Below, in pieces: positions 30,023 to 36,651 of a DNA stretch of 37,099 bases. The stretch lies in the NCBI GenBank assembly GCA_030705825.1, contig JAUZPR010000017.1, forward strand, positions 1 to 37,099. The letters are read 5' to 3'. The notes under the pieces are model-generated. The model was given only the letters and a program-made list of their open reading frames with translations. It was not told the origin of the DNA and made no database searches. Each line of letters starts with the position of its first letter. The first letter of the stretch is position 1. The position numbers and the translations under genes were made by a program. The stretch is from Bacillota bacterium. GTDB taxonomy: Bacteria > Bacillota > Clostridia > Acetivibrionales > JANLFN01.

Positions 30023-30110
30023 AATACACCCTTTCAGGCACTTTTCCCGGATCCTTCCGCGTGTGTATTTTTTCGTTATGTAGTATAACATACCGGATTT
30101 AATTAATCAA
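30023..30110 (-). promoter_or_regulatory. rpsB promoter and structured 5' leader
   Basis: Minus strand TTGATT-17 nt-TATACT (-35 at 30110..30105, -10 at 30087..30082). The leader can close a stem AATACAC...GTGTATT (30069..30063 with 30029..30023). Confidence 0.6.
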
Positions 30111-30112
30111 GG

Positions 30113-30154
30113 AATTTGTCAAATAAAATATGCAAATAAAAAGGAGAATATTTT
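30113..30154. repeat. Left copy of direct repeat bounding the accessory segment
   Basis: AATTTGTCAAATAAAAT (30113..30129) and AAAGGAGAATATTTT (30140..30154), both repeated exactly in the same order and orientation at 35124..35175. Confidence 0.75.
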
Positions 30155-30193
30155 AAAGTATTTTATAATGACAAAGTAATTCGTTCTTCACCC

Positions 30194-31165
30194 TTACAGC
30201 ATATCATAAAATGATTTTTCACTAATTATAATCAAATCGTACCCTTTCAGAATTAGGTCTTCCGCTTTCTTCTGCTTGTTTGATTTCCCGTCCTTTATTG
30301 AAGAACAATAGTCATTATTTCCAAGAACCAGGATATTTGTAGTTTTAGTTACAGAATCAGAAGGTATTCCCCCTAGGTTAGTTACGATTTGCAAAGCATC
30401 TTTCCTTTGGAACTTTTCAAGTGCGCCAGTAAAGCAGACAGACATCCCATAAATCGGATTACTAACATCAAACTCTTCAGATTCAGGCTTGTAATTATCA
30501 AGATCAAAACTTTTACCATGTGAAGTTTTGTGAAATGCAGCGAGATCGATATTGTTCGTATTGCAATGGTTTCTCATGTATTCATAAACTTTTTGAGTTA
30601 GTTCACAATCTGCCATTGCTCTATGCTGTATATCTGCTGTTATTTTAAATTCCTTCGACAAGTCAACCAATCTATGTCTAATATCTTTGAACAACCTTCT
30701 GCTGATTCTCATTGTATCAATGAAATTATTACTGAATGCTTTATTTATGCAAAACATGCAGTTATCATATAAAAAGTTAATATCAAAGTTCGCATTGTGT
30801 GCAGCAATAACTGAATCCCCCAAAAAATTAATTAACTCGGGAAGTACTTTTTCAATTTTGGGTGCATCCTTAACCATTTCATTTGTAATTCCAGTCAGCT
30901 GTGTTATGTATTCATCTATCAAGCATTCAGGTTTCACTAATGTTGTAAACTCTGCAATCTTTTCACCATTTGAAATTTTAATTGCTGCAATTTCTATTAT
31001 TTCATCATAAGTTGGATCAAGTCCTGTTGTTTCCAAGTCAAGAACAACATAATTATCAATGAATTCCAGAAGACTTTTCCCCTTATTTTCTCTCACTGTT
31101 TTTGGTATCCCACCGATAGAAACGCCATTTTCCATGTCAAACGATATAGTGATCCCTAACGACAT
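30194..31165 (-). CDS. DnaQ-like 3'-5' exonuclease with C-terminal BRCT domain
   Basis: 323 aa; YVVLDLETTGLDPTYDEIIEIAAIKI, AAHNANFDINFLYD, HRAMADCELT (DEDDh-type) followed by BRCT-like MSVCFTGALEKFQRKDALQIVTNLGGIPSDSVTKTTNILVLGN. RBS AAAGGAG upstream. Confidence 0.9.
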   Translation of the reverse strand: MSLGITISFDMENGVSIGGIPKTVRENKGKSLLEFIDNYVVLDLETTGLDPTYDEIIEIAAIKISNGEKIAEFTTLVKPECLIDEYITQLTGITNEMVKDAPKIEKVLPELINFLGDSVIAAHNANFDINFLYDNCMFCINKAFSNNFIDTMRISRRLFKDIRHRLVDLSKEFKITADIQHRAMADCELTQKVYEYMRNHCNTNNIDLAAFHKTSHGKSFDLDNYKPESEEFDVSNPIYGMSVCFTGALEKFQRKDALQIVTNLGGIPSDSVTKTTNILVLGNNDYCSSIKDGKSNKQKKAEDLILKGYDLIIISEKSFYDML

Positions 31166-31319
31166 TCACCTCACTCCTTTCAGATTTCTCTTACAATAAC
31201 ACAATGCCACCATAATAAACTGATGCTGTGATAGACAAGATGTAATATTTTTTCATATATTCCTCCGAGGAATTTGGTTATAAATTTAGAAATACATCTA
31301 CATAGAATCAATTCACTGG

Positions 31320-32132
31320 TTAAAGATATTCTATTTCCACCAACCATCTCCGGAGTTCTGTATTTCGAGTATGCCCAAGTGCCCGGGTTGTTGCTTGTTT
31401 TATTTGACCAATAGATATACCAAAACCTTTCAGTTCCGATGATTTATTTCTTAAATAGTCATATAAGTCCTTTGCTTCTCTGTCAGATAAATTATTGCTT
31501 TGAAGTTTACGAATTAGTTCTATTGGATTGATGTTTTCAATCCGTTTCCTTTCAAGTTCTTTTTCCTGTTCTTCTTTATATTCATTCAATAATACCTGTA
31601 GCCGTTTTTCTTGCCTATTGAGAAGAGGGAGCTTAACCCGAAGCTGGTCTGCCATATCATTTGGTACCGGCATGTCAAATGGAATACTAAAGGGTAGACG
31701 CCATTTATTTTTAACCTTTTCCAGCAGTTCTTCCTTTTCTAGATCTATTTTTTGTAATCCTTTTGTTATTAATCTAACCATTTCCGGGCTCATATCAGTA
31801 TGTTGTTCAAAATGTATAACACCTAATTTATATATTTTACCGGTTGGCTTATGAAGAATGGTGTACCTACGTCTAAGTGATCTACCACATTCACACTTTA
31901 AGTTGCCGTCAACGATTATATTATCCTCATATTCTATTAACTGCCATTCTAGCAGACTCTCAATAGTTTTGTCGGGATTGTCCAATTCTTCTTCAGTCAA
32001 AACACTTCCGAGTTTTTCAGCCCATGAATTAAGCCACTTTGTTTTCAGACCCCGTTTTATATAACCGTCTAAAACTTTCTTTTGTTCTTCGGTTAAAGAT
32101 AAATACGTTTTCTTCAAATCGTTCTTATCCAT
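31320..32132 (-). CDS. Uncharacterised protein, possibly DUF3895-like, with a CxC motif
   Basis: 270 aa; LTEEQKKVLDGYIKRGLKTKWLNSWAEKLG..., NLKCECGRSLRRRYTILHKPTGKIYKLGVIHFEQHTDM, charged coiled C-terminal half. Family assignment is from memory and tentative. Confidence 0.6.
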   Translation of the reverse strand: MDKNDLKKTYLSLTEEQKKVLDGYIKRGLKTKWLNSWAEKLGSVLTEEELDNPDKTIESLLEWQLIEYEDNIIVDGNLKCECGRSLRRRYTILHKPTGKIYKLGVIHFEQHTDMSPEMVRLITKGLQKIDLEKEELLEKVKNKWRLPFSIPFDMPVPNDMADQLRVKLPLLNRQEKRLQVLLNEYKEEQEKELERKRIENINPIELIRKLQSNNLSDREAKDLYDYLRNKSSELKGFGISIGQIKQATTRALGHTRNTELRRWLVEIEYL

Positions 32133-32184
32133 TCTAGCAGGACCCCCAAATAAGCAATAAGTTATATTCTATATTAAAGTCCTT

Positions 32185-32550
32185 TTACCGTGATAACTTA
32201 GGAATATTAATTGGTTCACTTAACCCATATTGCTTTAAGTACCAGATAGCATACTTATAAGCGTTTACTTCTTTTTCCCTTTTATCATAAATATTTTTGT
32301 TTCCAAACTTATACTCTTTGACCTGATTCATATATTGCCAAGCATGACGCATCTCATGTGCTAAAGTTCCAATATGATTTTCGTCTTTTACAGCAACAAT
32401 AAATTGCCCGTCATTCCATAAAAACCCACCATTTTGAGTAATAGTTCCCCCATTATCCGTTATTACCCTACATGCCTCTGGGCCAGCCAAAATGACTGGC
32501 GCTATGTTTAACTTATTCTTTAATTCATTAGAGTGATAAGTGAAATCCAT
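32185..32550 (-). CDS. HExxH metallopeptidase-like protein (start uncertain; may be the C-terminal part of a frameshifted product)
   Basis: 121 aa; IGTLAHEMRHAWQYMNQ zincin motif with downstream EKEVNAYKYAIWYLKQ. No good RBS at ATG 32550; frame is open upstream into the preceding gene. Confidence 0.7.
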   Translation of the reverse strand: MDFTYHSNELKNKLNIAPVILAGPEACRVITDNGGTITQNGGFLWNDGQFIVAVKDENHIGTLAHEMRHAWQYMNQVKEYKFGNKNIYDKREKEVNAYKYAIWYLKQYGLSEPINIPKLSR

Positions 32551-32585
32551 ACAAGATTGTATTGATATAAATGCCTCTGCCCCTC

Positions 32586-33125
32586 TTACCCCCCTAGAAC
32601 ATTTGCTTTAGAGTTGATATATTTTAGTGTCTTACCACTAAGCAGATTTGTATCTATTATAGCTTTTATATAAGGGTTTTTACTCTTCTTTTTATAATAC
32701 CACATATCAATTTTCCCAATAGCCAACTCAAAAAAAGAAGGTTTGATAATTGTAATTGCATTGCCGAATACATGTTCAAGTGACTTTCTTTTAAAGTGCC
32801 AGGTGCAAAATACTACATTCTTTTTTAAATTTTTAGCTTTTAAAATATTAATAGAGCACATACCTAAAAAGCTATTTATATCGTGATTACTCTTGTTAAA
32901 AACATGCAGTTCGATGTATCCAAATGGATTATATAAGCTCGGTGAAAATTCCTTTGTTCGGGATTTACTGACCAGTAAAAACCATATATATACTGCTGCG
33001 ATTATTAGCCATATACCAAGATTGTATTTTGCTTGTGTTACCCTCAGTATTAATATCCCTGCTAAGGTAAAGGTTAATAGACCAAATATGAAATTGATTT
33101 TAGTTATATAGTATTTTATCCTCAT
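32586..33125 (-). CDS. Membrane protein of unknown function, two N-terminal TM segments
   Basis: 179 aa; two hydrophobic stretches (INFIFGLLTFTLAGILIL; LGIWLIIAAVYIWFLLV) followed by a soluble region; GAGG RBS. Ends CTA GGG GGG TAA. Confidence 0.65.
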   Translation of the reverse strand: MRIKYYITKINFIFGLLTFTLAGILILRVTQAKYNLGIWLIIAAVYIWFLLVSKSRTKEFSPSLYNPFGYIELHVFNKSNHDINSFLGMCSINILKAKNLKKNVVFCTWHFKRKSLEHVFGNAITIIKPSFFELAIGKIDMWYYKKKSKNPYIKAIIDTNLLSGKTLKYINSKANVLGG

Positions 33126-33187
33126 GTAATCCTCTGTTATCGAAATTCAGACGGTATTTATCTAAGTTTCAATGGTTTGTGAAAGAG

Positions 33188-33733
33188 TTAACTATTAAGT
33201 GTACTTTTATCTCTTTTTTTCCTTTTAATATTATCTAATATAATAGCCTCAATAACATATGGCTGCTCACAATTATCTTCATTAGCTCTAAAATTACATC
33301 GAGGACAATCAAACCTTATTCCATAAATAGATGAACTTTGTATTAATGAAGTTTCACAGTTAGGACAATGAGCCTCTAAATCTGTGATTAACCAAGCATT
33401 TTCGTAATTACTCCATCGCCAACTCCATGTCCACTTCCACTTTTTTAAAATATCCTCTCTATAATTGTAAAATTCTGGTCTGTCATCTTCCCCATGTTGA
33501 AATCTCATAATCAAATAAATAATTGAAATTAAAGCTATCAGAAGCCACCATACTTTTAGTTTAATATTTAAAACATAAATAATAATGTTCAAAATAAACT
33601 TTAGTACTTTTCCAAAAGTATCAGCTATTGGCTTGTTCTTTGAATAATCATAAATGATAGTAAGAATAAAACTTAATATTGCTGTACCTATACTAATTGT
33701 CCAAGGAGATTTTACCCATTTCCCTTTTATCAT
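33188..33733 (-). CDS. Two-TM membrane protein with C-terminal zinc-ribbon
   Basis: ORF 33188..33760; start ATG 33733 with GGAGG upstream. WVKSPWTISIGTAILSFILTIIYDYSKNKPI..., KVWWLLIALISIIYLIMRF, then CPNCETS...CPRCNF. Confidence 0.75.
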   Translation of the reverse strand: MIKGKWVKSPWTISIGTAILSFILTIIYDYSKNKPIADTFGKVLKFILNIIIYVLNIKLKVWWLLIALISIIYLIMRFQHGEDDRPEFYNYREDILKKWKWTWSWRWSNYENAWLITDLEAHCPNCETSLIQSSSIYGIRFDCPRCNFRANEDNCEQPYVIEAIILDNIKRKKRDKSTLNS

Positions 33734-33799
33734 TTTGCCTCCATGTACCCAACGCACCAAATGTATCGTCCATTTTATAGGAACATCTTATTTCCAATA

Positions 33800-34126
33800 T
33801 TATTGTGACTCAAAGTGTTTATAAACAATATTTAGAACCATAACGGATAAGTCAGCTAGGTTTTGACTTTCTTGCTGACTTATCCTTTTGTTTATTAAGC
33901 TATCAATATCCATTGATATCATCTTATTTTCATAATAGGAAGTAAATATAGTATACTCAGACGTGGTATTTGTGTAAGGTACAAGAATATCACAGATCCT
34001 TCTTCCAAAATTGTCAAGTAAATCAATATCCTCTTTGCTTAAGGCGACATAGGATGGATATTTATATTTAAAATTTAACTTATTACAATCAATTAGTTGT
34101 ACTGAGCAAATCTCTAATTTTTCCAT
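33800..34126 (-). CDS. Hypothetical protein
   Basis: 108 aa ORF with CGGAG just upstream of the ATG; same strand as and closely spaced with neighbours. Confidence 0.55.
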   Translation of the reverse strand: MEKLEICSVQLIDCNKLNFKYKYPSYVALSKEDIDLLDNFGRRICDILVPYTNTTSEYTIFTSYYENKMISMDIDSLINKRISQQESQNLADLSVMVLNIVYKHFESQ

Positions 34127-34139
34127 TCATATCTCCGTT

Positions 34140-34436
34140 TTAGCCAACATATCTTTTTATAGAAATTTTTTGTGGAAATTCATTATAAATATATCCCTGT
34201 TCGGGTGAAATCCCAATTAATTCCGGACGTTCATCATATATCTCTTGCAACGATTTTTCTCTCACGCCTCCAACAATACTAAGTGGTTCTTGCAATTTTA
34301 TAGGATAATTCTTAATCATATCTTCAATTAGTTCTTTTACTCTTTCTTGGTCTTTTGCAAATACAATACCTTCAAACTTATTTGGCTGCTTTCTACTATT
34401 AAGTTTACTATAATAAAAATGTACTGAATAAATCAT
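34140..34436 (-). CDS. Hypothetical protein
   Basis: 98 aa ORF with GGAGGTAAG RBS; MIYSVHFYYSKLNSRKQPNKFEGIVFAKDQERVKELIEDMIKNYP... Confidence 0.6.
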   Translation of the reverse strand: MIYSVHFYYSKLNSRKQPNKFEGIVFAKDQERVKELIEDMIKNYPIKLQEPLSIVGGVREKSLQEIYDERPELIGISPEQGYIYNEFPQKISIKRYVG

Positions 34437-34624
34437 ACTTACTTACCTCCGTTAAATCAATTTTGAAAAATAAACTTTGATTTCGCAACTGCTTAAACTT
34501 ATAGTAAGCAATTTTATTTGTTGCGTATTTTATTAAGTTCTTCATTTGTGTGTTTCATAACTATGCCCGTTTTCAAAGCATTACCAGCAGCTTTTACATA
34601 TGTAACCATATAGTTTCATATAAG

Positions 34625-34858
34625 CTACCTGGGGTAATTATGTGATTCAACCTTAGAGAAAGCACTCACAAGCCCGATAGCAGCAATTAAAAATCCTACA
34701 ATTACTACTATAGTTGGAACGTTAGATTCAAAATACTTACCCCTTTGAATTTCATAAGTATATACTCCCAATAAAAGAGCGGATATCTGAATACGAAGGA
34801 AAATTATTGCTACCCCTACAACTGCTATAACTATACCAGATGTCTTAGGTTTGTTCAT
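34625..34858 (-). CDS. Small two-TM membrane protein
   Basis: 77 aa with GGAGG RBS; two hydrophobic segments (GIVIAVVGVAIIFL; IVVIVGFLIAAIGLVSAF). Confidence 0.6.
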   Translation of the reverse strand: MNKPKTSGIVIAVVGVAIIFLRIQISALLLGVYTYEIQRGKYFESNVPTIVVIVGFLIAAIGLVSAFSKVESHNYPR

Positions 34859-35123
34859 TTAAATACCTCCGTTTATATAAGTAGAATCTATTTCTCATAA
34901 TACTCAATTATTTAATATTTTGTAATTATTTAGGTTATCATAATATATTTAGTATTATAGCAAAGAATTGTTGGGAGTAAAAGCTTATTTATTCTTTTAT
35001 ATGAATATAACGAACAAGAAATTTAGATAGTTTCCATAGATTTTGCCGAATTTATAAAAATTAAAATGACTTACGATTGGACAAGATGTCGTGTTAAATT
35101 GAAAAGTTGTCGCTTCCAAATGA

Positions 35124-35175
35124 AATTTGTCAAATAAAATCTTAGTTATATGAACAAAACAAAGGAGAATATTTT
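35124..35175. repeat. Right copy of direct repeat bounding the accessory segment
   Basis: AATTTGTCAAATAAAAT (35124..35140) and AAAGGAGAATATTTT (35161..35175), same order as 30113..30154. Confidence 0.75.
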
Positions 35176-35193
35176 TCTGAAATAATATTCTCC
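35158..35193 (-). terminator. Probable sigK terminator
   Basis: Perfect inverted repeat GGAGAATATT (35164..35173)/AATATTCTCC (35184..35193); minus strand continues TTTGTTTTG. Confidence 0.65.
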
Positions 35194-36159: not shown

Positions 36160-36651
36160 TTAAGCCTTAAGCTGGTTTCCGCAATTCTGGCAAAACCTTG
36201 ATGACTCGTCGTTTAGTGACTGGCAGGCTGTACAGCGTACCATAATCGGCTGGTTATACTGGGGTCCCTGATTAACCGGAGGGTATTGGTTCATTTGTGG
36301 CTGATTTATCGGATTCTGCATCTGAGAATAATATGTATTCTTTTTGGATGATCCTACCGCCAGAAGTATTATTCCGAAAACAAGCAATATACCGCCGCAT
36401 ACGAACAATGCTATCATTTCTTCATCACTACCCCCGAAAGCTCTAATTAGCCTCGATTCTGTGGAAGTAGCTCTAAAAACACCAAGACCGGCCATAACAA
36501 TACCGGCTGCTAAAAAAATTCCGCCAAATACCTTTCTGAATGTAGGGAATTTTACAGATAAAAATATAAATACCACAACTGCAATAGCGCTTATAATTAT
36601 AATAGCTGTTGATGAACTACTGCCAATGCTGCCTACGTCAAAATTGGCCAT
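36160..36651 (-). CDS. Membrane protein with C-terminal zinc ribbon
   Basis: 163 aa; several hydrophobic segments, Q/N/P-rich linker, C-terminal CTACQSLNDESSRFCQNCGNQL. Confidence 0.8.
   Translation of the reverse strand: MANFDVGSIGSSSSTAIIIISAIAVVVFIFLSVKFPTFRKVFGGIFLAAGIVMAGLGVFRATSTESRLIRAFGGSDEEMIALFVCGGILLVFGIILLAVGSSKKNTYYSQMQNPINQPQMNQYPPVNQGPQYNQPIMVRCTACQSLNDESSRFCQNCGNQLKA

Follow-up and report, generated by a model that had tools for sequence, protein, structure and literature searches.

The window (the whole stretch of 37,099 nucleotides analysed here) comes from a spore-forming clostridial bacterium, and its locus between the housekeeping genes sigK and rpsB raises the question of how a block of accessory genes came to lie there with a piece of the same junction at each of its edges. 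The block comprises 4,969 bp (30155..35123), carries all of its genes on the minus strand and is absent from G001, a genome of the same family but of another genus, and the only other member of the family in the compared set.

An imperfect direct repeat at the edges of the block

The initial annotation had described two exact words in the same order and orientation at both edges, with spacers differing by about 10 nt, and this was borne out in full. AATTTGTCAAATAAAAT (17 nt) was found at 30113-30129 and at 35124-35140, and AAAGGAGAATATTTT (15 nt) at 30140-30154 and at 35161-35175; the spacers between them measure 10 nt on the left and 20 nt on the right. Gapped alignment showed that the spacers are also homologous (ATATGCA-AATAAAAAGGAG against ATATGAACAAAACAAAGGAG after a 9-nt gap), the middle of the pair aligning with this gap, a 1-nt gap and 3 mismatches. 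The edges of the block therefore carry the two copies of one imperfect direct repeat (left copy, 30113..30154, 42 nt; right copy, 35124..35175, 52 nt; neither assigned to a strand) and not two separate words.

Each copy is joined to a regulatory signal of the neighbouring gene. The putative rpsB promoter (TTGATT-17-TATACT, 30082..30110, minus strand) begins 2 nt past the left copy; the insertion left it intact, and alignment with G001 shows it to be conserved there. Behind sigK, the right copy passes into a hairpin that folds (35162..35193, minus strand), the sigK terminator, with an 11-bp stem and a T-rich tail on the minus strand. The left copy had been said to contain only half of this hairpin, and indeed it has a single arm and does not fold into the structure. 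With one junction copy staying with each neighbour, sigK (intact, 236 aa) retains its full terminator and rpsB retains its promoter.

In order to estimate how often such a pair arises by chance, both intergenic regions were subjected to 30,000 dinucleotide shuffles. An exact match of at least 17 nt was obtained in 2 of the 30,000 and one of at least 15 nt in 17, while two colinear exact matches, even of 12 nt each, never appeared. The generic gapped score of the pair is less extreme (reached by 1 in 2000 shuffles) because the DNA is very A+T-rich, and genome-wide BLAST found a 22-nt stretch elsewhere in the genome that matches the left copy as well as the right copy does. Given this moderate raw score and the additional match, the case rests on where the pair lies, with one copy at either edge of a single gene block.

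No further place matching the paired repeat was found in the rest of the 3.65-Mb genome, so it is not a dispersed sequence. The matches on contigs C216 and C126 proved to represent a single ribosome-binding-site region, present twice because the contig ends overlap, and another match (C35) was the terminator region of a different gene.

An empty site in a sister genus

An empty sigK-rpsB site had been predicted in close relatives, and G001 has one. Its sigK and rpsB share a strand and are separated by 295 bp, with nothing inserted; the gap consists of an rpsB promoter region alignable to that of the window, a short A+T-rich stretch and one strong terminator hairpin, so that a single hairpin runs into a single promoter. 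On the rpsB side, the left flank of the window and the left copy can be aligned to G001 from the start of rpsB as far as the first arm of the hairpin; beyond the gap, the flank next to sigK aligns as well. Because the empty site comes from a different genus, the alignment of the G001 sequence is no more than loose across the repeat, where the left copy is orthologous to its single copy. Where G001 has a single middle without any insert, the window thus has a duplicated middle and the 5-kb block.

Gene content of the block

The G+C content of the block is 31.8%, against 38.9% in the rpsB-side flank, and it contains eight ORFs, every one on the minus strand. The ORF nearest rpsB (30194..31165) encodes a DnaQ-like DEDDh exonuclease with a BRCT domain (323 aa; Pfam PF00929, 6e-42, and PF00533, 7e-6; PHROG 192). 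It is ~45% identical to phage proteins and ~42% identical to a plasmid protein, and proteins with ~50% identity were found in 7 scattered Clostridia genomes. Next to it is a 270-aa protein (31320..32132) whose N-terminal two thirds are related to Bacilli plasmid proteins, some of them annotated as 'DUF3895 domain-containing'. The sole relatives found came from Bacillus, Paenibacillus, Brevibacillus and Priestia plasmids, with none detected in 58 genomes of the order or in a 391-genome sample of the class. A small metallopeptidase-like protein (32185..32550; DUF3920, Pfam PF13058, 8.6e-8) has an AHEMRHAWQ motif. The remaining ORFs are orphans: a membrane-anchored protein of 179 aa (32586..33125) that ends at a run of six G; a protein of 190 aa (33188..33760) with a hydrophobic N-terminal part and a Cys-rich, zinc-ribbon-like C-terminal part; proteins of 108 aa (33800..34126) and 98 aa (34140..34436); and a small hydrophobic protein of 77 aa (34625..34858).

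The G run (32586-32593) closes the 179-aa ORF; the reading frame of the metallopeptidase ORF downstream stays open across the run. One gene may therefore be split here, whether by a frameshift of one base, a sequencing error or a phase-variable run; when the 179-aa and 121-aa (metallopeptidase) ORFs were read as a single frame, the DUF3920 match became no longer.

No recombinase, integrase, transposase, relaxase or replication initiator was recognised among the eight ORFs, in agreement with the initial annotation, which had seen neither integrase nor transposase inside. For three of the cargo proteins no viral relatives were found, and searches for a phage or plasmid donor gave no match at the DNA level. 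A defence system was also considered and rejected, as only generic DEDDh-exonuclease models matched. Most of the cargo families are without relatives in the collections searched; the cargo looks horizontally acquired, with genes mostly of unknown kind.

We also asked whether the same cargo is fixed between sigK and rpsB in relatives. It is not: none of its genes was present at any sigK-rpsB locus examined, and the exonuclease and 270-aa genes, the two that were searched, had no counterpart in the 57 other genomes of the order at the thresholds used. A repeat that is beyond chance and unique, an empty site in the sister genus, cargo that is absent from these relatives and has phage and plasmid homologues, and a low G+C content together make an insertion with target duplication of about 45-50 bp well supported, both by the anatomy of the site and by the outgroup. 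The earlier proposal that a sigK-terminator/rpsB-promoter junction was split by unrelated genes and partly duplicated is upheld on these grounds.

Origin of the block

We favour, with a probability of roughly 0.55, the reading that the foreign ~5-kb block inserted in the lineage of the window is a small mobile element without a recombinase, in other words an island that is decayed or CIME-like. The element would have entered the short gap between the sigK terminator and the rpsB promoter, and its integration would have duplicated about 45-50 bp of the gap, each neighbour keeping one copy. Its own recombinase may have been lost later or never carried, and the imperfect repeats would be the remains of its two ends. 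The cargo probably forms one or two operons transcribed from sigK towards rpsB; no terminator was seen at the left end of the block, and transcription may continue into rpsB. Since the repeat copies differ by a 9-nt indel, the block is probably immobile now.

The ends had initially been read as attL/attR-like and the element as possibly mobilised in trans. This is possible but unproven. Four tyrosine-recombinase loci were found in the genome, none of them with a good copy of the paired repeat; no matching site was detected elsewhere in the genome, and no attP-like match in viral contigs. The copies are unequal in length (42 and 52 nt), in contrast to attL/attR cores that are fresh, and there is no integrase inside.

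The block was also compared with known element classes. CIMEs (cis-mobilizable elements) are remnants of ICEs or IMEs that have kept attL and attR and lost the genes for integration and transfer, and the att sites of tyrosine-recombinase elements are usually 8-60 bp long (PMC5704250). Like a CIME, the block has accessory genes between direct repeats of that usual length, lacks recombinase and transfer genes of its own and sits at the end of a transcription unit. Flanking repeats and an empty site were both found, but the copies differ in length through their internal indel and no cognate att system is known. Also unlike a CIME, the block has no known integrase-bearing relative with its site, and neither descent from an ICE or IME nor att sites shared with one could be traced: the genome holds no other copy of the site, at its tyrosine-recombinase loci or elsewhere, and the cargo holds no ICE/IME genes. 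An insertion sequence or transposon fits poorly, with no transposase and no inverted repeat pairing the block ends among the longest pairs listed. We regard the block as an ordinary small genomic island and its insertion as one of an ordinary kind, here well documented because a sister genus has the site empty. It offers a clean small example, with the states before and after, of foreign genes at a safe spot between a terminator and a promoter.

Integration may instead have been driven by homology, through RecA-dependent or illegitimate recombination (for example, a Campbell-type single crossover of a non-replicating circle or a transformation fragment), the repeat then being the crossover homology and not an att site. 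We consider this rather unlikely, yet it is a real rival, as it accounts for the diverged copies without any enzyme: 3 mismatches and a 9-nt indel fit recombination between related, non-identical sequences, and no recombinase would be required, none having been recognised in the block. A parallel case is found in G033 (family f5; L127 10001-17243), where an intact sigK is followed by a ~6-kb accessory block and then by a second sigK 3' end. This duplicate is ~300 bp long, starts from about codon 137 and, judged by eye on the alignment, is about 94% identical to the original, an outcome that homology-driven integration could produce. On the other hand, ~45 bp is a short length of homology for RecA to act on, and the search for a donor replicon carrying the repeat or the cargo yielded none.

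The G033 block resembles that of the window in being accessory, in lying between an intact sigK and duplicated junction sequence and in having ORFs among which inspection revealed no recombinase. It differs in its cargo, in its family and in the duplicated piece, which is the 3' end of sigK itself. Duplicated junctions behind sigK have thus arisen at least twice by some route, and the second accessory block shows that the sigK neighbourhood takes such insertions repeatedly.

The sigK-rpsB interval across the order

In most other families examined, sigK and rpsB are separated by an AI-2E permease gene that is ytvI-like and lies on the opposite strand. This arrangement was seen in G023, G012, G007, G015, G017, G021, G033, G011, G009 and G029. 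In both members of the family of the window the best ytvI homologue lies on another contig, so that one loss before their split is the simpler account; most simply, the family ancestor lost ytvI from this spot and the insertion followed in the lineage of the window. The junction that the initial annotation had called ancestral is therefore ancestral for this family; for the rest of the order it is not, as the ytvI-like gene lies between.

The prevalence of this arrangement allows a different history, in which the block replaced a ytvI-like gene, G001 lost ytvI in a separate event, and the repeat arose when terminator-region sequence was duplicated by coincidence or in an unrelated way. The A+T-rich DNA, the only moderately unusual alignment score and the 22-nt genomic match described above would suit a coincidence. 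We nevertheless find this history improbable, as two long colinear exact matches exactly at the two edges of the block were never reproduced by shuffling, and two independent losses are less simple than one. An assembly artefact, with two contigs misjoined via the short repeat in this 242-contig draft, is very improbable, given that the copies differ, the exact words are just 15-17 nt, all genes share one orientation and synteny with G001 holds on both flanks.

In a stronger form of the island reading, an island with no recombinase of its own would target the sigK-terminator/rpsB-promoter gap, rebuild both signals as it integrates and be mobilised by an enzyme from elsewhere, with a recurrent hot spot for islands of this sort behind sigK in the order. 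We hold this to be doubtful. As a single data point, the window does indicate that insertions gather behind sigK even with sigK uninterrupted.

Skin-type elements occupy the same neighbourhood: in G046, G036, G027, G005 and others sigK is split by recombinase-bearing elements. In contrast, the sigK of the window is intact, the insertion lies downstream of its terminator and not inside the gene, and no excising recombinase is present. In G046 (a 5.0-Mb single-contig genome; L118 608-12345) sigK is in three pieces (approximately residues 1-112, 112-141 and 141-233 in the numbering of the window sigK), separated by two serial recombinase-bearing elements of ~6.5 and ~4.4 kb at two different sigK sites, and rebuilding the gene would need two excisions. 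The sigK duplicate of G033 begins at about the site used by the second of these elements.

Other changes were noted around sigK. Between sigK and a penicillin-binding-protein gene, the window has a 163-aa membrane and zinc-ribbon protein (DUF3185; 36160-36651), and the corresponding gap of G001 contains no gene. G017 (L114 2515-10077) has another accessory insertion, a 2,520-aa ORF that is NRPS-like by inspection, between sigK and ytvI. Within the order, sigK and rpsB have also changed their orientation with respect to each other: in G041 (L124) and G034 (L125), both of family f6, rpsB and sigK (or the 5' part of sigK) stand in a divergent, head-to-head arrangement.
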